From contig CACZMF010000017.1 in the NCBI GenBank assembly GCA_902782225.1, forward strand, positions 1-49,107: a stretch of DNA of 49,107 bases. The letters are read 5' to 3'. The translations under genes and the position numbers were made by a program. Numbering within the stretch: position 1 is the stretch's first letter; the number at the start of each line of letters is the position of its first letter. The notes under the pieces were generated by a model, which did no database searches, had not been told where the DNA came from, and worked only from the letters and a program-made list of their open reading frames with translations. Positions 10,177 to 49,107 of this stretch are shown piece by piece. The stretch is from an uncultured Bacteroidia bacterium. Lineage in GTDB: Bacteria; Bacteroidota; Bacteroidia; Bacteroidales; UBA932.

Positions 10177-10956
10177 ATGCAAGTTATCATTCGCAACACC
10201 ATGGTTGAGGCCTCCGTGTGGGCCGCCCGTTACATCGCAGACAAGATCAACGCCAAGGCCGCCGTGTCCGACAAGCCTTTTGTCATCGGCCTCTGCACCG
10301 GTTCCACTCCCATCGAGACCTATGCCGAACTCATACGCCTGGTCAAGGCAGGCAAAGTGTCCTTCAAGAACGTGATTTCCTTCAATATGGATGAGTATGT
10401 CGGCCTTCCCGTCGAGCATCCCGAGAGCTACCACAGCTTCATGCACAAGTATCTCTTCGACCATATCGACGAGCCTGCCGCCAACATCCATATCCTCGAC
10501 GGAAACGCCCCCGATCTTGCGGCCGAGTGCGCTGCTTATGAGAAAGCCATCGAGGCGGCCGGCGGATTCGACCTCTTCCTCGGCGGCGTCGGTGAAGACG
10601 GCCACATCGCATTCAACGAGCCCTTCTCTTCCCTCCAGTCCCGCACCCGCGTGATCACTCTGACCCGCGAGACCCGCGAAGTCAATTCCCGTTTCTTCGA
10701 CGGAGACTTGGAGAAAGTCCCCGCCCAGGCGCTTTCCGTCGGTGTCGCGACCGTCATGGGAGCGAAGGAAGTGGTGGTGCTGGCATTCGGATCCAAGAAG
10801 GCCCGCGCCATCAAGGACGCGGTCGAAGGCCCCATCTCGCACTATTGCACCCTCAGCGCCCTCCAGAACCATCCCGCCGGCATCATAGCTTGCGACGAGC
10901 CTGCCGTGGGCGAACTCAAGGTCAACAGCTACAGGTACTTCAAGGCCACGGAATAA
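10177..10956 (+). CDS. nagB: Glucosamine-6-phosphate deaminase
   Basis: A 259-residue protein, normal NagB length. It retains the catalytic set: D72 in NMDEYVG and the loop GEDGHIAFNEP with D141, H143 and E148, numbered as in the E. coli enzyme. It converts glucosamine-6-phosphate to fructose-6-phosphate and ammonia. It lies 12 nt after the fusion gene and 3 nt before lnt. Product and mannitol catabolism converge on fructose-6-phosphate, fitting the mtlA operon context. Confidence 0.95.
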   Translation: MQVIIRNTMVEASVWAARYIADKINAKAAVSDKPFVIGLCTGSTPIETYAELIRLVKAGKVSFKNVISFNMDEYVGLPVEHPESYHSFMHKYLFDHIDEPAANIHILDGNAPDLAAECAAYEKAIEAAGGFDLFLGGVGEDGHIAFNEPFSSLQSRTRVITLTRETREVNSRFFDGDLEKVPAQALSVGVATVMGAKEVVVLAFGSKKARAIKDAVEGPISHYCTLSALQNHPAGIIACDEPAVGELKVNSYRYFKATE

Positions 10957-10959
10957 GCC

Positions 10960-12585
10960 ATGGCCCGGACTCTGTCGACGAAGGCCACGCTATGGTGCCT
11001 CTGCGCGGCGTCGGCCGTGCTGCTCAGCATCCCCTGGCTCGTGCCGCACACGGGGCTGCTTTCGCTGGTGGCGCTGGTGCCCCTGCTCCTTGCCGAATAC
11101 ATAGCGCAGGGAGCGGGTGTGAAGCGCTTCTGGATATGGCACTACAGCACTTTCGTGGTCTGGAACGCCCTGACTACGTTCTGGGTGTGCAATGCCACGG
11201 TGGGAGGCGGCATTTTCGCCGTCCTGGCCAATTCGTTGCAGATGTCGCTCGTTTTCGGACTGTTCCGTCTTTCGCGCAAGCGTCTCGGGGGAGTGGTGCC
11301 CTATGTGTTCCTCGCCGTGGCCTGGATCGCATGGGAGCGCTGGTATCTGACGAGCGCCGAGATATCCTGGCCCTGGCTTGTGCTGGGCAACGCTTTTGCC
11401 ACCAGCGTAGGGGACATACAGTGGTACAGCGTCACCGGCACCCTCGGAGGCTCCCTGTGGATATGGTGCGCCAACCTCGGAATCTTCGGGCTGCTGACCT
11501 CCCTTGGAAGCGGCTGCTGGCAGAGCTGGAACGGCAAGGCAAGGGCCGCCGCCCTTTCCGCCCTCGGCCTCGTCCTGCTGGGGCCGCTGCTGTGTTCCGG
11601 AATAATGTATCATACATATGAGGAACGCTCCGAACGCACGGTGGAGGTGGTCATAGGCCAGCCCAACCTCGATCCCTACAAGAAATTCGAATCGATGAGC
11701 CAGGCGCAGCAGACCGACGTGCTCCTGCGCCTGCTTGCCGATTCCCTCAAAACCGCCCCGGCTGACTTGCTGCTGGCTCCCGAGACCTTCACTTTCGACG
11801 TGATTCTCAATGATATACCGTCATCTCCGACCTGGCAGCGTTTCCATTCCTTCCTGCAGGACTATCCGGGCACGGACCTGCTTTTCGGCGCCGCCACCAA
11901 CGAAATTTTCTTCACCTCATCGCCTCCCGGGCTGCTCAGCTATCCTTACGGCCAGGGCTGGAGGGTGCCGCACAACAGCGCCCTTATGCTGTCTTCGGAC
12001 GGCCGCACGGAGGTCTTCCACAAGAGCAAGCTTGTGGTCGGCACGGAGCTTACGCCCTACCCCAAGGTATTCGTGCCGCTGGACAACTGGCTGGCCGGAA
12101 AGTTCAACGGCGGGCGTCCAATGATGGCCCGCGACAGCGGCCAGGACGAGATTTCGCTTCTCCATCTCTCGGACGGCACGCCGCTGGGCTGCGCCGTGTG
12201 TTATGAATCCGTCTATGGGGAGTACTGCTCGGGCTATGCTTCGCGGGGCGCCGGCTTCCTTGCCGTGATCACGAACGATTCCTGGTGGGGCAATACTCCC
12301 GGCTACAGGCAGCATCTTAGCTACAGTTCTCTCAGGGCAATCGAGCTACGGCGCGACATCGCCCGCTGCGGCAACAGCGGCATCAGCTGTTTCATAGACC
12401 AGCGGGGGCGCATCCTGCAACAGGGGCCCTGGTGGAAGGAAGCGACGCTGCGCGGCACGGTGAACGTGAACACCCGCCAGAGTTTCTTTACGCGCCACGG
12501 AGATATTGCCGGCAGGGTCTGCACCCTGGTTTTCCTCCTGCTTTTGGCTCTCCTCACGGTCAGGTGCTTGCTTCCGAAGAAATAG
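10960..12585 (+). CDS. lnt: Apolipoprotein N-acyltransferase
   Basis: A 541-residue inner-membrane enzyme with hydrophobic N-terminal helices (about 1-225) and a periplasmic nitrilase-like domain. The catalytic triad is visible as the glutamate in LLAPETF, the lysine in FHKSKLV and the cysteine in AVCYESVYG. It adds the third acyl chain to the N-terminal cysteine of lipoproteins. It follows nagB by 3 nt, so it probably shares the upstream transcript, a functionally unrelated pairing. Several putative lipoprotein genes in the window are potential substrates. Confidence 0.93.
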   Translation: MARTLSTKATLWCLCAASAVLLSIPWLVPHTGLLSLVALVPLLLAEYIAQGAGVKRFWIWHYSTFVVWNALTTFWVCNATVGGGIFAVLANSLQMSLVFGLFRLSRKRLGGVVPYVFLAVAWIAWERWYLTSAEISWPWLVLGNAFATSVGDIQWYSVTGTLGGSLWIWCANLGIFGLLTSLGSGCWQSWNGKARAAALSALGLVLLGPLLCSGIMYHTYEERSERTVEVVIGQPNLDPYKKFESMSQAQQTDVLLRLLADSLKTAPADLLLAPETFTFDVILNDIPSSPTWQRFHSFLQDYPGTDLLFGAATNEIFFTSSPPGLLSYPYGQGWRVPHNSALMLSSDGRTEVFHKSKLVVGTELTPYPKVFVPLDNWLAGKFNGGRPMMARDSGQDEISLLHLSDGTPLGCAVCYESVYGEYCSGYASRGAGFLAVITNDSWWGNTPGYRQHLSYSSLRAIELRRDIARCGNSGISCFIDQRGRILQQGPWWKEATLRGTVNVNTRQSFFTRHGDIAGRVCTLVFLLLLALLTVRCLLPKK

Positions 12586-39031: not shown

Positions 39032-39874
39032 ATGAGCAAAAAACCTATTGTCGCATTGATTTACGACTTTGACGGGACGCTTTCTCCCGGTAATATGCAG
39101 GAGTTCGGTTTCATCCAGGCCGTTGGCTCCACTCCGGAGGAATTCTGGAAGATGAGCGATTCGATCGCAATAGGGCAGGATGCGTCTAATGTATTGGCTT
39201 ACATGAAGTTGATGTTCGATGAGGCGCATAAGCAGGGAATTCGTCTGCGCCGCGACCAGCTTCGCTGTTTCGGGGCTGGCATAGAGCTCTTCGACGGTGT
39301 GCGGGAGTGGTTTTCGCTTGTCAACGAGTACGGCAGGCAGCACGGCGTGCGGGTGGAGCACTACATCAACTCCAGCGGGCTTAAGGAGATAATCGAGGGC
39401 AGTCCCATCGCCTCCGAGTTCAAGCATATTTTCGCCGGTTCCTTCATATATAATTCGGAAGGGGAGGCGGAGTGGCCTGGCATTGCGGTCGATTACACGG
39501 CAAAGACCCAGTTCCTGTTCAAGATATCCAAGGGTATTTTCAGCTCACGCGACAACAAACGGGTCAATGCTTCCATCGCCGACGACAAGAAGCGTATTCC
39601 GTTCTCCCACATGATTTATTTCGGGGACGGTGAGACGGACGTGCCATGCATGAAGATCGTCGGGATGTTCGGAGGCAACAGCATAGCCGTCTATAATCCT
39701 GCCTCGGAGAAGAAAAAGGCTTCCGCTCTCAAGCTCAAGAGGCAGGGGAGGGTGGCTTTCGCCACCCCGGCCGTGTACACGGGCGATTCGCGCACGTTCA
39801 AGGTGGTCTGCGCCATCATCGATAAAATCAAGGCGGACTGTGAACTGGTCCGCCTGTCGAAGGCCGTCGATTAG
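39032..39874 (+). CDS. HAD-superfamily phosphatase
   Basis: A 280-residue HAD hydrolase with the nucleophile motif [10 protein letters not shown], motif II serine in YINSSGLKE, a lysine (motif III) region and motif IV in [12 protein letters not shown]. The cap region is helical (about 20-100). It resembles the phosphoserine-phosphatase branch, but the substrate is unknown. The ATG at 39032 is selected because it lies directly before motif I, at the normal distance. Its stop overlaps the folE stop by 4 bp. Confidence 0.85.
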
Positions 39875-40458
39875 CGGATCAGGTTCAGGAACTCGTTGCG
39901 GGTGCGGGCGGAACTCAGGAAGATTCCGCTGAACGCCGACGTGGTGGTCACGGCGTTTGATTTTTGCACGCCGCGTATCTGCATGCAGGTGTGGTTGGCT
40001 TCGATGACCACGGCCACGCCGAGCGGATGCAACGCTTCCTGGATGCAGTCGCGGATCTGCACGGTCAGGCGTTCCTGCACCTGCAGCCGGCGGGCGAAGG
40101 TTTCCACCACGCGGGCTATCTTGCTGAGGCCGGTGATTTTTCCGTTGGGGATGTAGGCGACATGGCATTTGCCTATGAACGGCATCATGTGGTGCTCGCA
40201 GGTGCTGTAGAGTTCTATGTCCTTGACCAGCACCATCTGCTGGTACTTTTCGTCGAAAATGGCCTGCCGTATGATGCTCTGCCCGTCCTCCTGATATCCT
40301 TTGGTCGTGAACTGCAGGGCCTTGGCCACGCGCTCGGGCGTTTTCACAAGTCCCTCACGCTCAGGATCTTCGCCAAGCAGGCGCAAGATTTCCCGCACGT
40401 GGGCGGCAATCGCTTCGGTGGTTTCGGGGGTGTAAAGCTCGTCTTTTGTGTAACTCAT
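39871..40458 (-). CDS. folE: GTP cyclohydrolase I
   Basis: A 195-residue FolE-type enzyme with the zinc-binding motif [18 protein letters not shown] and the catalytic segment [20 protein letters not shown]. It converts GTP to dihydroneopterin triphosphate, the first step to tetrahydrofolate. The ATG at 40458 is used because a -7 box ends 5 nt upstream of it; the longer frame begins before that box. It is divergent from the DUF2795-like gene. Confidence 0.95.
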
Positions 40459-40463
40459 AATTG

Positions 40464-40471
40464 CAAAAGTA
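40464..40471 (-). promoter_or_regulatory. -7 box TACTTTTG of folE
   Basis: A perfect TAnnTTTG on the minus strand whose end is 5 nt from the folE ATG. The transcript start would fall at or after the A of the ATG unless the alternative box about 10 bp upstream (TATTTTTG) is used. Confidence 0.5.
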
Positions 40472-40481
40472 CTCAAAAATA

Positions 40482-40511
40482 TTTGCACTTGAGAATAATT
40501 TTATATATTTG
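40482..40511 (+). promoter_or_regulatory. Promoter of the DUF2795-like gene (TTTG-N18-TATATTTG)
   Basis: TTTG at 40482-40485 and TATATTTG at 40504-40511 make one of the best -33/-7 pairs in the window, 28 nt before the ATG. After integration of the element it could also read across attL toward the integrase. Confidence 0.65.
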
Positions 40512-40539: not shown

Positions 40540-40761
40540 ATGTATTGGACACTTGAATTGGCCAGCAGCCTGGACGATGCTCCGTGGCCGGCAACTAAAG
40601 ACGAACTTATAGACTACGCCAACCGCTCCGGCGCTCCCGAAGAGGTCATCGAAAACCTTCAGGAACTCGAAGAAGAGGGCGAGATATACGAAACCATCGA
40701 AGACATCTGGCCGGACTACCCGACCAAGGATGATTTTTTCTTTAACGAGGAAGAATATTGA
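40540..40761 (+). CDS. DUF2795-like small acidic protein; integration target
   Basis: A 73-residue acidic protein (starts MYWTLELASSLDDAPWPATK; contains ENLQELEEEGE; ends in FNEEEY). The size and the 'APWPATKDELIDYANRSGAP' pattern resemble DUF2795 proteins, whose function is unknown. The last codons (40741-40759) are the left copy of a 19-bp att repeat, so the integrated element leaves the gene intact. The same codons with a stop are recreated at the right copy, though with no gene in front of them. Confidence 0.8.
   Translation: MYWTLELASSLDDAPWPATKDELIDYANRSGAPEEVIENLQELEEEGEIYETIEDIWPDYPTKDDFFFNEEEY
40741..40759 (+). repeat. attL core of the integrative element
   Basis: TTTAACGAGGAAGAATATT is repeated exactly at 48861-48879, in direct orientation and 8120 bp apart. 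It overlaps the 3' end of the DUF2795-like gene, with the tyrosine integrase gene immediately inside, which is the standard arrangement for integrase-mediated site-specific insertion. Confidence 0.88.
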
Positions 40762-40868
40762 TGGTTTCGGCGGGCTTTTATCCCGTGTAAATAATTGAAA
40801 ATCAATAAAGGGAGGCAAGCAGTCAATGTTTGTCTCTCTTTGTTTTACCTTGTTTTGAACCGCAAAAA

Positions 40869-40883
40869 GTTTGTCTATTTGCA
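40869..40883 (+). repeat. 15-bp direct repeat, copy 1 (candidate recombinase arm site)
   Basis: GTTTGTCTATTTGCA occurs at 40869-40883 and again at 40912-40926, 43 bp apart, between attL and the integrase gene. The first 11 bases recur near the right end at 48801-48811. Placement near both ends suits integrase or excisionase arm binding. Confidence 0.5.
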
Positions 40884-40911
40884 AACATCTATTTGGGGTA
40901 CCCCTTGATTT

Positions 40912-40926
40912 GTTTGTCTATTTGCA
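40912..40926 (+). repeat. 15-bp direct repeat, copy 2
   Basis: The second exact copy of the 15-mer. It overlaps the upstream part of the integrase promoter, so a bound recombinase could also repress its own gene. Confidence 0.5.
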
Positions 40927-40927
40927 T

Positions 40928-40935
40928 TACCTTTG
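40928..40935 (+). promoter_or_regulatory. -7 box TACCTTTG of the integrase gene
   Basis: A perfect TAnnTTTG 40 nt before the integrase ATG at 40976. It rules out the longer in-frame start at 40871, which lies upstream of the box. Confidence 0.6.
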
Positions 40936-40975
40936 TATCCGTCCTCCCGAATATTTAAGAAACGGACAAACATTA

Positions 40976-42361
40976 ATGGGTCGAGCGAAAAGAACTGCTG
41001 TTATCGGCAAACTCAGGTTGAAGTATCCCAAAAACAATTGGGATGCCAACAAGTCGTACACGATATACTATGAGTACAACTACAATCGTGCTATTATTAG
41101 GCGTCAATCACCATTCAAAGCACGGGTGCGTGAATGGAACGAGACTGCAAACAGCGGTAAGGGAGGACTGACTAACCAGTATGGTGATGATTATCGCCGT
41201 GACACTAATAGGATGCTTCGTTTCCTCAGCGACATGGACAACAAAATTCGTGATTACGCGGATAAGCACCCCAATAAACTGAACCAAAATATTATCCATT
41301 CTTTGTTGTTTGACGCTCCACTGACACGTGCTGATGAAGGGAGAGATTTCGTTCAGTACGTCAAAGATAACTTAAAAACAAGGCTTACTGAAAATAAGAT
41401 AAAGCAAAGTAGGTACGAGAATGGCATGTCGGGGATGAAGATTTTTCAAGAGTTTCTGCGCTCACAAGGCAAAGGTACGTACAAAGACGATTCTATTTAC
41501 GTTGGTGAGATTAGCGTAGAACTGATTTCTGATTACATAGCTTACAGAAAAGAAGTGTTGAAGAATGAGAACTCGACTATTAACCACGCACTGACACCGA
41601 TTATCATTGCTTGTCATCAAGCAGCGCTAAAACACTATATCACCGAGGAGACCTACAAAGAAATCAAGGATAAGAGAGTAGTTGAGGATGCTTCATCCGT
41701 TGATGATGCTGGATTTGATGGAAAGTATCTTACACGCGAGAATTTACAGAAGCTGGTAGAGTTTCACGATTCTGACACCGAAATACGGCGGAAGGAATAC
41801 ATTGAAATGTTCCTGTTTGCTTTTCACACAGGTGGACTTCGCATTGTTGATGTCATGACCCTTCAATGGAAGCACATTGATTTCACCAAGGAAGAAATGC
41901 GTAAGGTGCTGATTAAGACAGCGAAATACCAAAATCAACGTAATATAGTACCTTTAACCACACCCGCAATTAAAATCCTGAAACATTGGCAAAAAATGGG
42001 GAGACGGGAACGTTTCGTGTTTGACTTGCTACCTGATGATTTTGACGTCAAAGACCCGAAAAAATTATATTTAGCACGTAATAATGCTGACAGAAAGGTT
42101 AATCAGGCGTTGAAGGTTGTCGGAATCAAGATGAAATTACCGTTTACCCTAAGTTTCCATGTGGCAAGGCATTCATTTGCCATAAACGCCCTGAATGATA
42201 AAACACACCCTTTGGATATGTATCAGGTTTCACGACTACTGGGACATTCATCAACGATGGTCACGGAGAAGGTTTACGCCGATTACATAACTGAAACGTT
42301 ACAGGATAAAATGAATGACCTTCATTTCGATTTCTTGCCAGACCTCGACGCAGGGAACTGA
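40976..42361 (+). CDS. Tyrosine recombinase / integrase
   Basis: A 461-residue site-specific integrase. The N-terminal part contains a SAM-like core-binding region (about 130-260). The catalytic domain has the full set: R289 in GGLRIVD, K317 in TAKYQNQ, H395 and R398 in HVARHSF, H424 in LGHSS and the nucleophile Y434 in KVYADY. It should recombine the 19-bp att sites for integration and excision. The gene begins 217 bp inside attL, reads into the element, and its stop abuts that of the convergent Rep_trans-like gene. Confidence 0.93.
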   Translation: MGRAKRTAVIGKLRLKYPKNNWDANKSYTIYYEYNYNRAIIRRQSPFKARVREWNETANSGKGGLTNQYGDDYRRDTNRMLRFLSDMDNKIRDYADKHPNKLNQNIIHSLLFDAPLTRADEGRDFVQYVKDNLKTRLTENKIKQSRYENGMSGMKIFQEFLRSQGKGTYKDDSIYVGEISVELISDYIAYRKEVLKNENSTINHALTPIIIACHQAALKHYITEETYKEIKDKRVVEDASSVDDAGFDGKYLTRENLQKLVEFHDSDTEIRRKEYIEMFLFAFHTGGLRIVDVMTLQWKHIDFTKEEMRKVLIKTAKYQNQRNIVPLTTPAIKILKHWQKMGRRERFVFDLLPDDFDVKDPKKLYLARNNADRKVNQALKVVGIKMKLPFTLSFHVARHSFAINALNDKTHPLDMYQVSRLLGHSSTMVTEKVYADYITETLQDKMNDLHFDFLPDLDAGN

Positions 42362-43393
42362 TTATACCCCTTTTCTTTTTTTCTGCCCAAGTCTCTGTAA
42401 TGACCTAAGACTATTCACAGACAAGTCCAAAATGGATATCTGGGTTTTGGTGTGGTTGCGGAGTTTGAAATGGAGTAGGTGGTTAGCAAAGTAAGTAAAG
42501 AGTTCTTCTCTGACTCCCTCGTTCATCCCCAGGTCAAAGAAATAATGTTCAAGCCCTTTTCTGAATTCTTCCAACTGCTGGGAGCGAGTATGCAGGGGGT
42601 TATTGGTGTACCACTTGTTTGGGTAACTTTTGCATAGGTATTTGAAGTACGTTTTAATCTGTTTGTTTTCTACGTATATTTCCAGCCTTTGCATTGTGTC
42701 TGACATGCCATTCCATGCCCGCGTTAGGACATCTTTGTCGGGGCGTGATTGTGCAAGTTCCCGTGCCTTGTCATATACTTTTAACTCACAGGTGTTACCT
42801 GACTCCGTTTTGTTCCCATGAATGTATAGGGTCGGACGTGGCGCTTTCTTTAAACGGCTGCGTTGATAATATTCCCAATATCCTTCCAGTGTTTCGTCAG
42901 GCTTTCTGACCTTCTTCCAAAGTAAAATCATGTCGAAAACATCTGGTTTCCCTACGGCATAATTGATTCTGTTAATAACACTTGCCTCGGTGTCACAAGC
43001 GATTTCCATCGAAGTGATATTGTTGAATGTCAATCCCAGTGTTTGAAATGCAAAAAAAGGAAGCGAGAAATAATTGTATTTTTTGCCATCAATGACATAC
43101 GTAGTCTGGTACAAGCCCTTTGTGTCATAGCAAAAAAAACACTTGCTCCCATATTTCTGAGACTTGTTAAATGTGAAAGTTCCTAATAAGGTAGGGGGCG
43201 TGTCCTCTACGTATAACTGAGCAGTTATGTCCTTGTCGTTAACTTTTTCAGGACTTTCAAACGAAAGGAAAAAACCGTCATAATGGATTTCTCTTTTTCG
43301 GTCACTGTGATATGTATTGTATAAGGTGTCAAAGAAATTCTCTGGCTGTAAGAGGCAAATTCTTACTTTGTCTAAATTGAAAATCGTCTTCAT
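42362..43393 (-). CDS. Probable Rep_trans-type replication initiation/relaxase protein
   Basis: A 343-residue protein from the ATG at 43393 (MKTIFNLDKVRICLL). The ATG at 43420 is excluded because a -7 box covers it. The centre has features of the Rep_trans family (pT181 Rep, and the MOBT relaxases of ICEBs1/Tn916): a strand LYIHGNKTES, then ELKVYDKARELAQS, and RLEIYVENKQIKTYFKY, corresponding to the YDK and R-x-E elements. Such proteins nick DNA at an origin through a tyrosine. If correct, it would drive replication or mobilisation of the element. The assignment rests on motif pattern only. Confidence 0.5.
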   Translation of the reverse strand: MKTIFNLDKVRICLLQPENFFDTLYNTYHSDRKREIHYDGFFLSFESPEKVNDKDITAQLYVEDTPPTLLGTFTFNKSQKYGSKCFFCYDTKGLYQTTYVIDGKKYNYFSLPFFAFQTLGLTFNNITSMEIACDTEASVINRINYAVGKPDVFDMILLWKKVRKPDETLEGYWEYYQRSRLKKAPRPTLYIHGNKTESGNTCELKVYDKARELAQSRPDKDVLTRAWNGMSDTMQRLEIYVENKQIKTYFKYLCKSYPNKWYTNNPLHTRSQQLEEFRKGLEHYFFDLGMNEGVREELFTYFANHLLHFKLRNHTKTQISILDLSVNSLRSLQRLGQKKRKGV

Positions 43394-43417
43394 CTTATCG
43401 GTGCTTATTGTCGTACG

Positions 43418-43425
43418 CAAATATA
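43418..43425 (-). promoter_or_regulatory. -7 box TATATTTG of the Rep_trans-like gene
   Basis: A perfect TAnnTTTG on the minus strand, 24 nt before the chosen ATG at 43393. Confidence 0.6.
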
Positions 43426-43581
43426 CAAAATTGCGACAGCATTACCTTATTTGTTAAGAAACAATCTATATCTTTTATGAGTTCAAGAGGGAGGGAGTTT
43501 ACTGGTGTTTGTTTTCAATAATCATATATAAATCACAGGAACAACCCCAAAACCGACTATTATTGCCAAACCGACTATTTA

Positions 43582-43601
43582 TTGGCAAATGGATTTGCCA
43601 A
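43582..43601. promoter_or_regulatory. Perfect 9-bp-arm palindrome over the HNH gene start
   Basis: TTGGCAAAT-GG-ATTTGCCAA is a perfect inverted repeat covering the ATG at 43589 and ending at the next in-frame ATG at 43601. Just upstream CCGACTATT is repeated at about 21-bp spacing (43553 and 43571). The cluster looks like an operator. Confidence 0.5.
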
Positions 43602-44083
43602 TGAACGTAAAATATTATAGGGGGGAAATATGGATGCCGATTAAGGGGTATGAAGGTCGATATGATATCAGCAATTTTGGACGCGTTCGCTGCCACGACT
43701 ACCGTCGGAAGGGAGTGTTGAAGATAATGAAAACAACAGCTCAACAGGGTTATTACATTAAGGTAGCTCTTCGGGGTGATAATGGAAAAACTAAGTATTA
43801 TAGGGTTCATCGTTTGGTTGCAGAGGCTTTCCTTGATGCTCCACGACCAGAACAAACGCAGGTAGAACACCTTGACTGTGACAAGCATAATAACAATGTC
43901 GAAAATTTGCGATGGACACACCCCAAGGGCAATATGGCTAACCCCCTGACAAGATATCACCTTTCCGTAGGACACATGTGCCCATGTGAAGAAACAAGGG
44001 CAAGGATGTCAGCAGGTCAATTAAGAAGGTTTGCACGGGAACGGGCAACAAAAACGGGACGGTATGCACCCTCCCGTGTATGA
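43589..44083 (+). CDS. NUMOD4-HNH endonuclease
   Basis: A 164-residue protein: an N-terminal NUMOD4 motif (IWMPIKGYEGRYDISNFGRVR) followed by an HNH domain with VHRLVAEAFL, the metal-site segment VEHLDCDKHNNNVENLRW and a downstream basic tail. Free-standing HNH nucleases of this kind are homing endonucleases common on phages and mobile elements. The start may be 43589 or 43601; the palindrome at the start suggests control there. It is the only + strand gene between the integrase and the XRE gene. Confidence 0.88.
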   Translation: MDLPMNVKYYRGEIWMPIKGYEGRYDISNFGRVRCHDYRRKGVLKIMKTTAQQGYYIKVALRGDNGKTKYYRVHRLVAEAFLDAPRPEQTQVEHLDCDKHNNNVENLRWTHPKGNMANPLTRYHLSVGHMCPCEETRARMSAGQLRRFARERATKTGRYAPSRV

Positions 44084-44114
44084 TAGATTTTGATAACGAA
44101 GTAAACAAAAGTAA

Positions 44115-44756
44115 TCAGAGAAATCTCTTCAACTTCTGCAATGTTCCAAGCGACGTTCCAGTAATAGCCCTTACGTTTCGCATACTGATACCCTTTCGTA
44201 GCAGGCTGAGTTCCTTTGCGTATTCTTCACGGTAGGAATCTTCGCTCTTCTGATAACCCTGTCTCCCAAGTCGGAGTTCAGGGTTCTCCTTGCGCCTTTG
44301 TATGTATGCACGGTAGCCCATAGAGAGGCGTGTGCGAATTTGTTCGCGCTCGTAACTCGCAACGCTCAAAACCACAGATAACAGCATTTCTGTGATAGCC
44401 GATATCTTTCCGTCCTGTAACGTTTCAAGGTTATAATTTGCCAAGTAAAGGTTCACGCCATTGTCGGCAAGCGTCCTGATAATCTGCACCCCTGTAAGAA
44501 GGTCACGGCTCACCCTGTCAATGGAAGTGGCGCAGCAGTAGTCAATCTTGTTTTCTTTGACAAAGGCTATCAAGTCCAAGATTTCTTGTCTCTTCTCCAA
44601 AGGGGCGGCTCCTGACACATAGTTGCCAAACACCTTGACTATCTCCCAATCTCGCTGCTTGCAGATTTCGGTCAGCGTATCAATCTGATATTGGTAGTCC
44701 TGCAATCCTTTTTCTTTTTCTGTCGAACACCTTACAAGGCAAACACACCTTTTCAT
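44115..44756 (-). CDS. Serine recombinase (resolvase/invertase family)
   Basis: A 213-residue protein with the resolvase N-terminal catalytic domain: nucleophile S11 in LVRCSTEKEKG, conserved TSIDRVSRD and the arginine-containing YEREQIRTRLSMG helix. A C-terminal helix-turn-helix follows (LLRKGISMRNVRAITGTSLGTLQKL). It could resolve multimers or invert DNA. No inverted crossover sites are recognised nearby. It is the last gene of a minus-strand run of small genes starting near 46022, 7 nt after the preceding gene's stop. Confidence 0.9.
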   Translation of the reverse strand: MKRCVCLVRCSTEKEKGLQDYQYQIDTLTEICKQRDWEIVKVFGNYVSGAAPLEKRQEILDLIAFVKENKIDYCCATSIDRVSRDLLTGVQIIRTLADNGVNLYLANYNLETLQDGKISAITEMLLSVVLSVASYEREQIRTRLSMGYRAYIQRRKENPELRLGRQGYQKSEDSYREEYAKELSLLRKGISMRNVRAITGTSLGTLQKLKRFL

Positions 44757-44763
44757 ATCCTTA

Positions 44764-45078
44764 TTACTTTGAGATTCCGTAAGTTTTCTTAACCCTGTTA
44801 GCGTAGTCAGGGCAGCGTTCTACCATGCCGTCGATTGTCGATACCAGACAGTCCAAGTACACCTCTGTTTCTTCCTGTTTGATGCTGCCATCTGGATTGA
44901 AAGTTCGGACGGTGAAGGTGTCTGTTCCTTCGTCATATACGACATTAACAAGCCCTGTATGCATGTATCCACGCACATAGAATGCAAGCCCATTCTCAAT
45001 CGCATAGGCACTGTGAAAACCCCATGAAAACAGAACCATAAGGTTTGTTCGAAGTATCTGTAAAATGTATTTTGCCAT
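44764..45078 (-). CDS. Hypothetical protein (mobile-element small gene)
   Basis: A 104-residue protein with a hydrophobic N-terminal third (ILQILRTNLMVLFSWGFHSA), a beta-rich middle and a charged C-terminal helix (ERCPDYANRVKKTYG). I do not recognise the family. It sits between two short genes with gaps of 6-7 nt, so it is part of the same operon. Confidence 0.6.
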   Translation of the reverse strand: MAKYILQILRTNLMVLFSWGFHSAYAIENGLAFYVRGYMHTGLVNVVYDEGTDTFTVRTFNPDGSIKQEETEVYLDCLVSTIDGMVERCPDYANRVKKTYGISK

Positions 45079-45084
45079 GTCAGT

Positions 45085-45279
45085 TTAATGTTTCAGAATG
45101 TCGTAAATGGTGTCCAAATCAAATTCGCGGTCAATCGGTTCTGAGGGGTGTGCTGCATACACTATAATGAAGCCACAGTTGGCAATGTGACATTGTGCAA
45201 CACATTTATCGTACCCCTGATATTTGTCAAGTTCATCGGCTGTCAGCGTCTGGAATTCAAGTCCGTAGTTGGTCTTCAT
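45085..45279 (-). CDS. Hypothetical protein (64 aa)
   Basis: A 64-residue acidic protein (MKTNYGLEFQTLTADELDKY start, DREFDLDTIYDILKH end) with no motif I recognise. It is spaced 6 nt before the next gene in the operon. A strong hairpin lies just upstream, between it and the WYL_2-like gene. Confidence 0.55.
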   Translation of the reverse strand: MKTNYGLEFQTLTADELDKYQGYDKCVAQCHIANCGFIIVYAAHPSEPIDREFDLDTIYDILKH

Positions 45280-45299
45280 TTCTGTGTGTGTGGTGTAGT

Positions 45300-45323
45300 G
45301 GGGAGGTATATTTCAACCTCCCC
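45300..45323 (-). promoter_or_regulatory. Intra-operon hairpin
   Basis: GGGGAGGT and ACCTCCCC form an 8-bp perfect stem with an 8-nt loop (45308-45315). No T-run follows, so it is more likely an mRNA-stability or processing element than a terminator. Confidence 0.5.
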
Positions 45324-45333
45324 TTAGAAACAA

Positions 45334-45705
45334 TCAATAAACCTTCACCAAAGTTTCGTACGAGAAGCAACGGAACTGATTTTTCTGCAAATCGAGCACT
45401 GTGAAATTGCCATAAATGCTGTTAGGTACGCCTGTGCCCTTGATTTTGGGCTGAATGAGGTTTCCGTAAAGGCAGCACACCATGTGGCGAAGTTCTCCAG
45501 TGCTCTTTTTGATGAAATCTATCTCGACGATTTCGCCCTTTGAAAGCCTTTTCTTCAATTCCGAAATCATTGCGAGTTTGGCACCTAAAAGAACAGGATT
45601 GAGATTGCCGTGCGTCTTGGCAAGCATGTAGGAAGCACGTTCCATATCAACGTCGTTGACACTGATAACATTGGAAACAGGGGCGGAGGTAACAATAGTT
45701 GTCAT
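45334..45705 (-). CDS. WYL_2/SH3-barrel-like small protein (DUF2693 type)
   Basis: A 123-residue protein from the ATG at 45705 (MTTIVTSAP); a longer in-frame start at 45732 adds nine residues. The C-terminal half has the pattern LSKGEIVEIDFIKKSTGELRH and ends in a strand with FRCFSYETLVKV, resembling the Sm/SH3-like barrels (DUF2693, WYL_2) of Bacteroidetes phages and elements, whose function is unknown. It lies in the minus-strand operon. Confidence 0.6.
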   Translation of the reverse strand: MTTIVTSAPVSNVISVNDVDMERASYMLAKTHGNLNPVLLGAKLAMISELKKRLSKGEIVEIDFIKKSTGELRHMVCCLYGNLIQPKIKGTGVPNSIYGNFTVLDLQKNQFRCFSYETLVKVY

Positions 45706-45746
45706 ATCAAAATCTATTATGGGGTTAAACATTCAAAAACAATAAG

Positions 45747-46022
45747 TTAGTCACCATAGTAACGACCACGAACTCCGTAATAGTCGGAGGGGACTTCGCA
45801 GGGAAAGAAAGAAGGCTGAGGATTGGAAATCCTTTCGTCAATCTTATCAAGGAATCGGTTAGCCTCTTCAACGCTGTGGAAGATGTACCCACTGAAATGA
45901 TATCCGTCCTTATCGAAGTTCTTAAGGAACAGGGAGACACCAAGGAAGTCCTTGACAATTTGCCACTGTGCTCCGTTCAAGGTGGTGCGGTATGTGATTT
46001 CTTCTTTCATTTCTTGTCCCAT
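45747..46022 (-). CDS. Hypothetical protein, first gene of the small-gene operon
   Basis: A 91-residue protein from the ATG at 46022 (MGQEMKEEITYRTT). The longer start at 46085 lies upstream of the -7 box at 46033-46040, so it is rejected. The chain is acidic with a C-terminal aromatic stretch (SDYYGVRGRYYGD) and no motif I recognise. It leads the operon that ends with the serine recombinase. Confidence 0.6.
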   Translation of the reverse strand: MGQEMKEEITYRTTLNGAQWQIVKDFLGVSLFLKNFDKDGYHFSGYIFHSVEEANRFLDKIDERISNPQPSFFPCEVPSDYYGVRGRYYGD

Positions 46023-46032
46023 TTTGTTATTA

Positions 46033-46064
46033 CAAAGGTAAGAATAAAATATGACAAATGCAAA
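46033..46064 (-). promoter_or_regulatory. Promoter of the small-gene operon (TTTG-N20-TACCTTTG)
   Basis: On the minus strand TTTG (46061-46064) and TACCTTTG (46033-46040) are 20 nt apart, a good Bacteroidetes promoter. It is back to back with the XRE promoter. Confidence 0.65.
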
Positions 46065-46078
46065 TATTTTTATGCTGT

Positions 46079-46111
46079 TTTGCATATTTTTCCATGCTTT
46101 TACTATATTTG
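46079..46111 (+). promoter_or_regulatory. Promoter of the XRE gene (TTTG-N21-TATATTTG)
   Basis: TTTG (46079-46082) and TATATTTG (46104-46111) are well spaced, 16 nt before the XRE ATG. The divergent layout is the classic one for a regulator controlling both directions. Confidence 0.65.
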
Positions 46112-46127
46112 TCAGAAAAACACACTT

Positions 46128-46427
46128 ATGATTGAACTAACGAAGGAATACATTAGCGGTCTTATCGAGCAGCGGGGTATGACGAAGGTAGAATTTGCCG
46201 CCAAAATGGGCTATAAGGAGCGACAGTACCTTGATTCCGTCCTGAACAACAAGAAGAAGGATATCACTACTGTTGTTAAGATGGCAGAGGTTCTTGGAAT
46301 GCCCTTGTTGGAATTCATTGGTGAGGTGGAGCCTGAGCGAACAATCTACGGACAGGTGTTTGTGGATAGGAAGCCATATCAGATAAACTCCAAAGAAGAT
46401 TTGGAGTCTTTGCTCAGAATTGTTTAA
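46128..46427 (+). CDS. XRE-family transcriptional regulator
   Basis: A 99-residue protein with an N-terminal lambda-repressor-like helix-turn-helix (ISGLIEQRGMTKVEFAAKMGYKERQ, about residues 9-60) and a short C-terminal segment (ERTIYGQVFVDRKPYQINSKE) that resembles the extensions of Bacteroidetes XRE proteins. The start at 46128 matches the promoter. It is divergent from the small-gene operon and is the best candidate regulator of the element. Confidence 0.85.
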   Translation: MIELTKEYISGLIEQRGMTKVEFAAKMGYKERQYLDSVLNNKKKDITTVVKMAEVLGMPLLEFIGEVEPERTIYGQVFVDRKPYQINSKEDLESLLRIV

Positions 46428-46511
46428 TAATGATAATCTATTACGTTATTAATCTCTATTTGTTATTGCGTGTTAGTAGTTTATTCATATCTTTACAATA
46501 AAATTATGCTC

Positions 46512-46946
46512 ATGAAAACATTCATCAGACTTAGTGCAATTATTCTGTTGTGCTCTACACTTCTCTTTGGCTGTAATGGTATTCAGACAGACGACCCCTC
46601 TAAAAACGACCTCCCTAAAAACCCGTTAGCGGGCACCTTATGGAGTTATGATGATGTGACTTCTCTTGGTAAAGAACAATATACCCGTTATATTGAGTTT
46701 CTTGACGAGACCAATGTTAGGATTTGGGATACTAACAATATGTCGTCAAATGCAGTGGCAACAGGCACATACTCTATTAGCGGCTCTAATGTTACGTTTA
46801 ATGGAGTTTGGAGTAAGTATTGGATGAAGTATTATATAAGGGCTACATTTACAAGTAATACAATTACTGCATATTATAAATACACTGCATATGATTCAAG
46901 TGAAACGTGGGGCTCTGAGTTTCAAGAGATTTACACAAAAAAATAG
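46512..46946 (+). CDS. Cargo lipoprotein (lipocalin-like/DUF-type, unknown function)
   Basis: A 144-residue protein with a lipoprotein signal (lipobox LLFGC) and a beta-rich domain (TYSISGSNVTFNGVWSKY, ITAYYKYTAYDSSETWG) like the small exported 'lipocalin-like' domains of Bacteroidetes. An ATG at 46506 is an alternative start. A weak box TATCTTTA is at 46488-46495. The stop is followed in the same frame, with no gap, by a decapitated DNA methyltransferase, so it marks a recombination junction. Codon usage is AT-rich. Confidence 0.7.
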   Translation: MKTFIRLSAIILLCSTLLFGCNGIQTDDPSKNDLPKNPLAGTLWSYDDVTSLGKEQYTRYIEFLDETNVRIWDTNNMSSNAVATGTYSISGSNVTFNGVWSKYWMKYYIRATFTSNTITAYYKYTAYDSSETWGSEFQEIYTKK

Positions 46947-47327
46947 TGTCACATCATTGATTTCCCCGTAAGGGAATATGACATCATAACCAACCCTCCG
47001 TATGATGAAAACCTGATAGCAATTGTTAAACGCTGCCTATCCATTTGTAAGAACAAAGTTGCAATGCTGCTACCCATCCAGTATCTTAGTGGCAAGGAGC
47101 GTTATAGTGAGTTATATGTGAAGTTCCCTCCGTCACGGGTCTATATCTACTGTGAGCGAATCAACATTGCCAAAGACGGTGATTTTGAAAAATTCTGCGA
47201 CAGTGGAGCCAACATGACCATATATGCATGGTATGTATGGGAGAAGGGGTATCATGGTTCTACGGAGTTGCGGTGGATTCACAACGACAAGAATGAACAG
47301 AACACTCACGGTGAGGTCTCTTTTTAA
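46947..47327 (+). pseudogene. 5'-truncated N6-adenine DNA methyltransferase remnant
   Basis: Directly after the lipoprotein stop the same frame stays open and reads YDIITNPPYDENL, containing the catalytic motif IV NPPY of adenine methyltransferases. It continues with VAMLLPIQYLSGKERY, PPSRVYIYCERI and ANMTIYAWYVWEKGY, and stops at 47325-47327. The SAM-binding motif I half is absent, and there is no start codon until 47064, after the NPPY motif. The remaining 126 codons therefore cannot make an active enzyme. The intact ancestor was probably the phage/element type of orphan methyltransferase. Confidence 0.75.
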
Positions 47328-47408
47328 TCTAAAAGATGAAGGTTAGAATACGGTGTTCACCTTCCCTATACAAATAATTAGAACAAAACTTGTATAGGAC
47401 AAAATGAT

Positions 47409-47438
47409 GGCTCAGGAACAAGCTCCTGAGCCTTTTTT
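47409..47438 (+). terminator. Terminator after the methyltransferase remnant
   Basis: GGCTCAGGA / TCCTGAGCC, a 9-bp perfect stem with a 6-nt loop, is followed by TTTTTT. It is the strongest intrinsic terminator in the element. The stop of the convergent 75-aa gene lies at its end. Confidence 0.85.
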
Positions 47439-47664
47439 ACAGCAGAACATCATCAAAGGTGTCACCATCCTGTTCGCTCTTGGGCGGTATCTTCGACCAA
47501 TAACCTCCCGTATCGGCTTTCAGACCGTTTGATATCTTTGCGCACCATTCAGGATTGCGTGGGTTTGCTGCATTGTAAGCCTTCAACGAGGCGGAAATCT
47601 TTTGAGCGGTCTCAGGACTAACACCTCTGTCCTGACGTTTGTAGTTTTTCTTAGTTGTTTCCAT
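47437..47664 (-). CDS. Hypothetical protein with NUMOD3-like pattern (75 aa)
   Basis: A 75-residue basic/acidic protein. Its centre (SPETAQKISASLKAYNAANP, then EWCAKISNGLKA) resembles NUMOD3 DNA-binding repeats of homing endonucleases; the C-terminus is acidic (DGDTFDDVLL). No nuclease domain is present, so it may be a fragment or a small DNA-binding protein. It converges on the terminator at 47409-47438. Confidence 0.45.
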   Translation of the reverse strand: METTKKNYKRQDRGVSPETAQKISASLKAYNAANPRNPEWCAKISNGLKADTGGYWSKIPPKSEQDGDTFDDVLL

Positions 47665-48094
47665 GTTTCCTGTGTTTTACTATAAATAGTGGCTTGTTAA
47701 GAAAACTAAGGTTGTTAGGTCGTTTTTCTTTGTGCTGATTTTCACAGGGGAAAATTTTTCGGAAACGGCTCCCCGTCTTGGAAAACCTCAAAATTCTGGG
47801 AAAAATTTTTGTTCGGAACAGTGGTAGCGTAATAAGCCTAACAGATAAGTAAACTTAGTTAGGGGAGTGTACATCTAACAATTCTTAAAAATTTTTAATA
47901 ATTACACAAGCAACAGTTGGCACGTGGATTCCTGTGCGTTTTCAAAATGTAATTACTTAACGGGATATTAGGTTTTATCTACTGTGTAAAGAACTCTCAG
48001 TCAAAGCAAAACCTTGATATACATCGGCAAATCTGGCCGTAATAGTTTGTCGTGAATCTGAGCTGTTTTGGGGTGGAATGAGACAAATAGAAAA
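47665..48094. other. 430-bp gene-free AT-rich segment (possible origin or oriT)
   Basis: No convincing gene. It contains AT-rich runs, short palindromes (AAAAATTTTT at about 47888, GTAATTAC at about 47949) and a C/G-rich island at 47757-47785. It lies between the 75-aa gene and the right-end helix-turn-helix gene, where small mobilisable elements often keep an origin. No nick-site motif can be named. Confidence 0.3.
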
Positions 48095-48706
48095 TCAGTC
48101 AGGTTCGTGCCTTGCTTTCGGATGATTAAGAAATGCCTGAACGTCTTTTTGGGTGTACCAAAATTTGTCACTGCCCTCATATTTGGTGTAGCCCAGATAA
48201 CCCTTCTCCCTGAATTTCCTAAGACGTTCCTCTTTAATGTCGAGGAGGTTCATTATGTCCGCGTTTGTGAAGACAAGTTCATTATTAACCAACTTGTACT
48301 GTGGGCGTAATATGGAAATGAAATTGGACTTTGCCAGTGTTTTGAGGATATCAATTACACGAAGAATGGCTTGTTCTCGGAAATAAATAACAGCTCCGAA
48401 AGTCTCGTTAGGAACCTCTATCCATTCAAGTTTGGAATTAACTTCCAGTAAACGGCACGTTGATAGGTAATCGTCACCAATGATGTCCTGAACACAGAAC
48501 TGGCTGATGAGGTTAGTGAATTGCCACGGCAAGAATTCTTTTTCCCCCTTACCGTTAATATCTGTGCCGTCACCACATGATTCGTCATAGATAAGCTCTG
48601 CGGGTTCATTCTCGTGCCATTCTCCCCGTTGCTTTCTCTTCTCCTTGTTTTCACTAATCAAGGTAGCATACTGGGTCACAATCGATTCTTGCCTGTTGGG
48701 TTCCAT
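48095..48706 (-). CDS. Helix-turn-helix protein, possible excisionase/regulator
   Basis: A 203-residue protein from the ATG at 48706 (MEPNRQESIV); the longer start at 48757 lies upstream of the -7 box at 48727-48734 and is rejected. The last 70 residues form a MerR/excisionase-like helix-turn-helix (TNADIMNLLDIKEERLRKF, then KEGSD-like wing and YTQKDVQAFLNHP), common on Bacteroidetes integrative elements. The N-terminal part has no motif I know. At the right end of the element it is a candidate directionality factor for the tyrosine integrase. Confidence 0.75.
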   Translation of the reverse strand: MEPNRQESIVTQYATLISENKEKRKQRGEWHENEPAELIYDESCGDGTDINGKGEKEFLPWQFTNLISQFCVQDIIGDDYLSTCRLLEVNSKLEWIEVPNETFGAVIYFREQAILRVIDILKTLAKSNFISILRPQYKLVNNELVFTNADIMNLLDIKEERLRKFREKGYLGYTKYEGSDKFWYTQKDVQAFLNHPKARHEPD

Positions 48707-48726
48707 TCTATTTTTGATTAATAGTG

Positions 48727-48734
48727 CAAATATA
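48727..48734 (-). promoter_or_regulatory. -7 box TATATTTG of the right-end HTH gene
   Basis: A perfect TAnnTTTG on the minus strand, 20 nt before the ATG at 48706. Confidence 0.6.
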
Positions 48735-48800
48735 TAGAAAACCGATTGTTTGTCCAAAAGTACACTGGTGCGTGATTTGCCTTGTTTTATGTGGAAGTCT

Positions 48801-48828
48801 GTTTGTCTATTCTATGAATATACCTTTG
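48801..48828 (+). promoter_or_regulatory. Outward-facing promoter-like sequence at the right end
   Basis: GTTTGTCTATT (48801-48811, also found twice at the left end) is followed by TACCTTTG (48821-48828). It reads toward and across the right att copy. After excision and circularisation it would face the integrase gene. Confidence 0.45.
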
Positions 48829-48860
48829 TAATTGATTGATAATCATATATATTATTCCGT

Positions 48861-48879
48861 TTTAACGAGGAAGAATATT
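48861..48879 (+). repeat. Second att copy (attR of element 1 / junction with element 2)
   Basis: An exact 19-bp copy of the left att core (TTTAACGAGGAAGAATATT). It recreates the codons for NEEEY plus a stop. The sequence beyond it differs from that at attL and holds a new gene start. Confidence 0.88.
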
Positions 48880-48915
48880 AGGGGCTTAACTGACTGAAAT
48901 ACAGAGAATTAACTC

Positions 48916-48949
48916 GGATGGGTGCCATTTTAGCGAATGGTGCCCATCC
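48916..48949. terminator. Hairpin between att and the next gene
   Basis: A 14-bp stem with two G-T pairs (arms 48916-48929 and 48936-48949), loop TTAGCG, followed by TCATTTTATC. It could stop transcripts leaving element 1, or act as an attenuator ahead of the next gene. Confidence 0.55.
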
Positions 48950-48960
48950 TCATTTTATCG

Positions 48961-49024
48961 CATTCTGTCGCATCCTGTCGAAACGAAAGTTAACACAATA
49001 CTTAACACAAAACTTAACACAATT
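48961..49024 (+). repeat. Iterated repeats upstream of the right-edge gene
   Basis: Two 10-bp repeats (CATTCTGTCG, CATCCTGTCG at 48961-48980) are followed by three 12-bp repeats (GTTAACACAATA, CTTAACACAAAA, CTTAACACAATT at 48989-49024). These iteron-like arrays next to an att site resemble integrase arm or excisionase binding sites. Confidence 0.65.
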
Positions 49025-49065
49025 TTGTAAGAGGAATAGTAACGTTAACTTAAAAAGACAGCACT

Positions 49066-49107
49066 ATGGGTTCAGTAAAACCAAGAATTCCCTCAGGAAA
49101 GTTCGTC
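49066..49107 (+). CDS. Partial gene at the window edge, possibly a second integrase
   Basis: An ATG at 49066 opens 14 codons (MGSVKPRIPSGKFV) to the window end. Its position, about 190 bp inside an att copy with repeats upstream, matches the position of the element-1 integrase (217 bp inside attL), so a second integrase is likely. The few residues do not prove it. Confidence 0.4.
   Translation, partial: MGSVKPRIPSGKFV

Follow-up and report, generated by a model that had tools for sequence, protein, structure and literature searches.

The DNA analysed here (the window) is one entire contig of 49107 bp from an uncultured member of the Bacteroidales (contig CACZMF010000017.1), and the sequence right of position 49107 lies outside it. 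Near its right end, a small gene for a DUF2795 protein is followed by an apparent integrative element (element 1), and this in turn by what seems to be the left end of another one (element 2). The borders are marked by a 19-bp sequence, TTTAACGAGGAAGAATATT, referred to below as the core. The region is laid out as follows:

40540..40761, + strand: DUF2795 gene, 73 amino acids, the probable integration target (PF11387, E 5.1e-20, above the cut-off; ends in FFNEEEY, then TGA)
40741..40759, + strand: core copy 1, adjoining the DUF2795 gene
40760..48860, + strand: element 1, 8120 bp from core to core
40976..42361, + strand: tyrosine integrase of element 1, 461 amino acids, about 217 bp right of core copy 1 (PF00589, E 5.3e-16; PF13102, E 1.3e-7)
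48836..48845, no strand assigned: TTGATAATCA motif, preceding core copy 2 and present before many interior cores
48861..48879, + strand: core copy 2, followed by a new stop, TAG
48880..49107, + strand: left end of element 2, interrupted by the contig end
48916..48949, + strand: terminator-like hairpin (inverted repeat) in the left end of element 2
48983..49023, + strand: three 17-nt direct repeats, probable arm-type sites
49066..49107, + strand: first 14 codons of the element 2 integrase, MGSVKPRIPSGKFV, with the start codon at 49066; the 448-residue integrase of genome G277 has the same N-terminus

Two elements at the end of one gene

The repeat had been noticed in an initial annotation of this DNA and was confirmed: the two copies are exact, and 100 shuffles gave a mean of 0.00 matches even with up to three mismatches allowed. 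Read in frame, copy 1 encodes the final FFNEEEY before TGA, and copy 2 has the same last codons before TAG; it can thus be read directly in the sequence that either copy restores the end of the reading frame, C-terminal codons and stop alike, as the annotation had said. Its view that the first copy represents the last codons of a DUF2795 gene and not a tRNA gene also holds, given the PF11387 match and a window in which no tRNA or tmRNA gene was found, which sets this locus apart from genomic islands at tRNA genes.

On the right of copy 2, the annotation had described a hairpin, iterons and the start of a new reading frame placed like the first integrase. The hairpin and the new integrase start were both recovered, but the repeats are better read as probable arm-type integrase sites than as iterons, since the same 17-nt motif also occurs just before the right-end core in four genomes (G327, G011, G027 and G242). 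Starting at copy 2, 240 of 244 bp are identical to G277, the match beginning at the core, and the same 244 bp are 99.6% identical to G078, whose gene region resembles the window at only 73% (550 bp) and 86% (201 bp). In G277 this left end stands directly behind the DUF2795 gene and is followed by the 448-residue integrase, a helix-turn-helix (HTH)-like protein, a DnaG-like primase, and MobC-like and MobB-like proteins (MobB and MobC models with E-values of 1.7e-58 and 3.2e-193, yet below the curated cut-offs, with 198.7 of 400 and 643.7 of 900 bits), this element being seen without its right end. Altogether, an element 2-type left end lies directly behind the DUF2795 gene in G277, G078, G327, G396, G011 and G036. 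When six carriers were compared, all pairs (15/15) were 96–100% identical after the core; before it, identity was 78–89% in the ten pairs of gene copies and 45–50% in the five pairs that involve copy 2 of the window, which has element 1 in front. The left end was matched in 69 of 400 genomes of the genus, the own genome included, many of these matches being short stretches; in 17 other genomes the match covers at least 99 bp at an identity of at least 97% and starts at the core, and among the matches listed it either starts at the core or stays within the arm-repeat region. The integrases of the two elements are 29% identical over 377 positions.

Since the left end of element 2 is found elsewhere behind the same gene, with a match that runs from the core on, the earlier proposal of two different elements stacked at one attachment site in a protein-coding gene is upheld; at the level of sequence, the tandem in the window is established, its right boundary excepted. 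As the contig ends at 49107, this boundary, and any third core beyond it, are not in the contig. Among the traits of an integrative and mobilizable element (IME), element 1 has its own integrase and attachment-site repeats, and element 2 shows the left core and the integrase start only.

It is therefore very probable that a family of Bacteroidales integrative elements uses the final codons of the DUF2795 gene as its bacterial attachment site, that these elements stack there, and that the window holds element 1 and the left end of a different element. In the mechanism proposed, a circular element would be joined to the gene end by recombination between their two cores, carried out by a tyrosine integrase, and the element would supply its own last codons, a stop and usually a terminator. 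Because the element carries its own last codons and stop, the gene would stay whole. Each insertion would leave a restored gene end that can serve as a site once more, so that later elements would insert in front of earlier ones. The order in the window would then be element 1 (8.1 kb, with both ends) by the gene, followed by the left end of the different element whose relative in G277 has MobB/MobC-like genes. The sequences compared show the cores, the repair of the gene, the difference between the two left ends, where the integrase lies, that some sites have an element and others none, and that left ends are common to several hosts; excision, circle formation and the order of arrival are inferred.

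Occurrence of the site in other genomes

The annotation had also suggested a recurrent insertion site. A profile was built from eight integrases chosen for their position at this site; at an E-value of 1e-40 it gave 55 matches in 54 of the 400 genomes. In the best 30 of these 55 matches, the integrase starts 158–500 bp right of the end of the DUF2795 gene in every case (30/30); eight of these loci are the profile's own members, so that the independent count is 22/22. Among the other 25, weaker matches, six lie beside a core by their coordinates (G176, G147, G340, G335, G416 and G078). Together with a sister genome without an element, described below, these loci bear out the suggestion. The integrase of element 1 itself is 72% identical to that of G091 at the same site. 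A shortened family integrase of 391 residues was also seen in G077 (contig C48; L170:10358-11533, reverse strand), where no second exact core was found.

A family integrase also lies beside the gene in six of 80 named loci (RUG10765, SW299, a Paraprevotella metagenome-assembled genome (MAG), a Dysgonamonadaceae MAG, Muribaculaceae Isolate-013 and RGIG8287). A second core follows 14.3 kb on in SW299 and 19.2 kb on in Isolate-013, neither record being labelled a MAG. The proteins of the SW299 element include DUF3987, DUF6371 and Mob_Pre; past its second core there is a second, shortened integrase open reading frame (ORF; 344 residues versus about 450), followed by genes which we take to resemble fabH, era and der. 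The Isolate-013 element contains an ORF of 2368 residues (L273:4058-11161) and carries as cargo an AbiP2-like defence reverse transcriptase (L273:13491-15203).

Searches of plasmid and phage collections with the integrase profile gave one and two weak matches, respectively, and against the integron integrase model TIGR02249 the integrase scored 29.2 bits (cut-off 265), which does not class it as an IntI. An origin of the elements as prophages was also considered, and it was dropped because all 14 viral-contig loci matched by the profile lacked a core (up to one mismatch allowed) in the stretch examined.

A relative of the DUF2795 gene is present in 54 of the 61 genomes searched, the own genome counted. 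Among 30 DUF2795-gene loci, the own included, seven contigs stop within 200 bp past the 3' end of the gene, and no contig stops less than 1 kb from its 5' end, a clustering that is expected if shared left ends break assemblies. A pattern for the core matched 218 of the 400 genomes, which is not a count of the site, since some matches lie in another gene (three such copies were seen) and genes that end in TGGAAY, as in 7 of the 30 integrase loci, escape the pattern; about 73 of the 400 have at least two matches to the pattern, as tallied by eye. The copies in another gene are core-like FNEEEY coding stretches in the context GSAT[EV] (G026:C29, G365:C15 and G380:C21; L182, L183 and L196), false positives of the pattern. 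A terminator-like hairpin is found within 130 nt after the core in 94 of 113 distinct gene copies, which include sites without an element, and in 40 of 46 interior copies (134/159 together), against a background in shuffled sequences of 21/565 and 10/230 for gene and interior cores, respectively. From hairpins after most cores, arriving elements seem usually to bring a transcript end along with codons and stop.

Occupied and unoccupied sites

The comparison with an empty site, for which the annotation had called, was possible in relatives. In the sister genomes G167, G286 and G419, the sequences left of the core are 96.7–97.5% identical (G167 versus G419, 97.5% over 1520 bp). Between two cores there are 21.46 kb in G419 and 15.9 kb in G286, whereas G167 has the gene core alone; a stretch of 1555 bp to the right of the last core has 93.6% identity between G419 and G167. 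For its first 325 bp, the flank of G286 resembles that of G167 at 80%, and its continuation, at 90%, is on another contig. Roughly the first 200 bp of the flank in G167 have an 83% relative elsewhere in G167; the flank may therefore be old element DNA, and the site need not be virgin. Likewise, G093 and G209 are 97–98% identical on both sides and differ by two closed segments plus about 1.2 kb, and the site of G209 is maybe a scar and not untouched, as a 295-bp stretch behind the gene resembles, at 74%, the DNA that follows the last core of G093. In a search of the own genome for the distal end of the array, the right flank of G167 gave two matches of about 50 bp. In Parabacteroides faecalis (L110, about 10220-11895), about 1.67 kb are present beside the gene in excess of P. 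gordonii, with one ORF of 380 residues; this stretch was not counted as closed because no second core was found (best, three mismatches).

Several observations weigh against the interpretation given above. No third copy of the core was found in the own assembly (34 contigs, rated 92% complete), neither with the exact sequence nor with a relaxed 18-letter pattern. Integrase matches in G305 and G330 sit on contigs other than those of the listed cores, and the match in G077, a shortened one, is 9.2 kb away from the gene core. One pattern for the circular junction of element 1 was absent from viral contigs, and family scans recognised no relaxase among the element 1 proteins (the origin of transfer was not searched for). 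Finally, many of the named records are MAGs and many genomes are incomplete.

Gene content of element 1

Besides the integrase, element 1 contains the following features:

40869..40926, + strand: two copies of GTTTGTCTATTTGCA in the left end, possible integrase arm sites
42362..43420, - strand: protein of 343 (ATG start) or 352 (TTG start) amino acids, 23% identical to a gene of the G092 element
43589..44083, + strand: HNH endonuclease with NUMOD4 motif, by family match
44115..44756, - strand: small serine recombinase, 213 amino acids (PF00239, E 2e-22)
46128..46427, + strand: HTH regulator (PF01381, E 3.8e-7)
47064..47327, + strand: ORF like the C-terminal part of a phage-type DNA methyltransferase (phrog_799, E 9.1e-17, profile positions 314-390 of 458)
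48095..48757, - strand: right-end protein, with a C-terminal part also found in many of the integrase-bearing elements examined (tblastn)

A motif of the left end, GTTTGTCTATT, recurs at 48801-48811 in the right end, as could be the case for arm sites; the arm-like motifs of element 1 were not lined up by alignment. The right-end protein, which had no match in Pfam or NCBIfam, may be a directionality factor. For the protein at 42362..43420, neither family models nor solved structures (E up to 5) gave a match, viral contigs contained no relative, and the predicted structure (42365-43390) was unusable, with a mean pLDDT of 37.1; that it acts in replication is perhaps the case, as a guess. The small serine recombinase scored at most 31 bits with models of the cassette chromosome recombinases (Ccr), whose cut-offs are 700–900. 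Among ten element 1 proteins scanned with PHROGs there were no virion structural families, so that the element does not qualify as a prophage. Upstream of the DUF2795 gene, on the opposite strand, lies a gene (39871-40488) that presumably corresponds to folE.

Segments without an integrase

Another aspect of the site is the presence of segments that are closed by cores and lack an integrase. Searches with integrases (tblastn) divided 29 closed segments into eight with an integrase and 21 without; one of the latter, in G011, was called integrase-free from its single large ORF, a Bro-N protein. These 21 correspond to what is known as a cis-mobilizable element (CIME), with attachment sites at both ends and no integrase. 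They measure 1024–7659 bp, and 17 of them are below 3.1 kb; since regions were picked from the listed matches, with one set for several copies per contig, the sizes are biased short. Compared with integrase-bearing elements, the left end matches in 13 of the 21 at an E-value of 1e-4 (eight over at least 80 bp; two over 29–30 bp, mostly core) and the right end in five (two over at least 80 bp, with eight right ends for comparison). In 13 of 16 genus genomes with integrase-free segments the profile had no hit at 1e-40, a figure that includes several incomplete genomes and assumes the same 400-genome set as the core-pattern search.

The proteins of these segments are diverse. Of 20 that were compared with Pfam, five had no match, and the others gave SLFN_AlbA_2 (two), Bro-N (two), RhuM, AAA_14/DUF4143, Barstar, FRG, DUF4238, PLD, a CAP12/Pycsar-type TIR, MBOAT, DUF4279 and ORF6N, with one AIPR just below the cut-off. 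PADLOC was run on ten proteins, five from integrase-free segments and five from large elements. In the first group, the TIR protein was a strong PDC-S35 match and the PLD protein a weak DrmC match, one AlbA_2 protein matched parts of Argonaute-system profiles, and the AIPR-like and MBOAT proteins had no match; in the second, the Isolate-013 protein was AbiP2-like, three matched parts of defence profiles and one SW299 protein matched none. As there was no background set for comparison, an enrichment in defence functions is not claimed. In G269, a segment (L076:3595-6375) has an inner right-end-like sequence (segment positions 630-767) and no intact core there, as if two segments had been fused.

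The chances are about even that these segments are decayed remains of integrative elements, left by deletion and no longer moved by anything. Such decay is consistent with one segment that has both termini of an integrase-bearing element (its first 210 bp 82% and its last 102 bp 88% identical to the termini of the G286 element), with the shortened distal integrase ORF of SW299 and with the existence of fused segments; accretion of IMEs and CIMEs is described in the available part of PMC5704250. Decay is harder to reconcile with the prevalence of segments below 3.1 kb and with the direction of the largest ORF, which is that of the gene in 20 of 21. Furthermore, G091 and G093 share the right-hand 672 bp of one segment at 95% identity, against 73–76% for their gene regions, and 12 of the 21 (compared with 8/8 of the integrase-bearing ones) start at the gene core, which under the stacking model is the place of the newest arrival. 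A more tentative explanation, which we consider rather unlikely as it stands, is that an integron-like capture platform, based on a tyrosine integrase of the conjugative type, has its head at the gene end, and that in this platform compact cassettes of one to few genes, some defence-like, would be served by a recombinase in trans, move between species independently and be stacked in one orientation. Under this explanation, the independent movement of the segments would depend on an integrase acting in trans.

The sharing of termini among segments, in a modular manner, might also be taken as the mark of a homologous-recombination hotspot at a conserved gene, and not of an integrase site; this is very improbable, as the boundaries fall on the same 16–19 bp core and an integrase of one family stands beside it in all 30 loci examined. 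Lastly, that copy 2 is a chance or coding repeat, with both stretches belonging to one element or to an ordinary island, can hardly be maintained in spite of the FNEEEY stretch in another gene (GSAT context, three loci), given that none is expected by shuffling, that the matches to other genomes start at the core, with shared left ends that already contradict it, and that the two integrases are 29% identical.

Relation to known systems

Staphylococcal cassette chromosome (SCC) elements are moved by Ccr recombinases of the serine type, the mobilizable elements of Bacteroides known as NBU (non-replicating Bacteroides units) combine a tyrosine integrase with mobilisation genes, and integrons hold arrays of short units of one to few genes, mostly in one orientation, beside a fixed site. 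The attachment site considered here, at the end of the DUF2795 gene, shares traits with each of them. According to the part of PMC6243372 that is available, SCC and composite islands of staphylococci lie at the 3' end of orfX, together with pseudo-SCC elements without ccr at the same site; the likeness thus extends, as far as that part goes, to one protein-gene 3' end as the site, an intact gene, tandem composite islands and recombinase-free members. The differences are a PF00589 tyrosine integrase in place of Ccr, another host, another gene, and 17 of 21 integrase-free segments below 3.1 kb. The accessible text of PMC5704250 describes accretion of IMEs and CIMEs at one attachment site and integrases of similar specificity that are only distantly related; in both cases, elements with and without an integrase lie in tandem and retain attachment sites, but many segments here are very short, and the DUF2795 target was not met in that text. 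NBU1 and NBU2 are placed there at tRNA genes, whereas here the site is a protein gene; DUF3987, DUF6371 and Mob_Pre in SW299 and the MobB/MobC-like proteins of G277 are reminiscent of NBU elements. The short co-oriented units next to a fixed site recall integrons, from which the integrase differs by its 29.2 bits versus a cut-off of 265. Integration into protein-gene 3' ends is also reported for Thaumarchaeota, in the portion of the source available. Tandem elements at the end of a protein gene are therefore already known, from SCC at orfX and from IME/CIME accretion, as far as the available parts of PMC6243372 and PMC5704250 describe them. No prior report of the DUF2795 site, of its spread in the Bacteroidales or of many short integrase-free segments was found in the literature searched, subscription papers and supplements being outside it.

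With the end of the DUF2795 gene, mobile DNA would have a landing site that can be predicted throughout a bacterial order; this may explain the assembly breaks found there, and a search for mobile defence genes could begin at this site. Should the short segments move on their own, they would provide a route to cassette arrays besides integrons, and whether they move as units is the most interesting point raised by this site.

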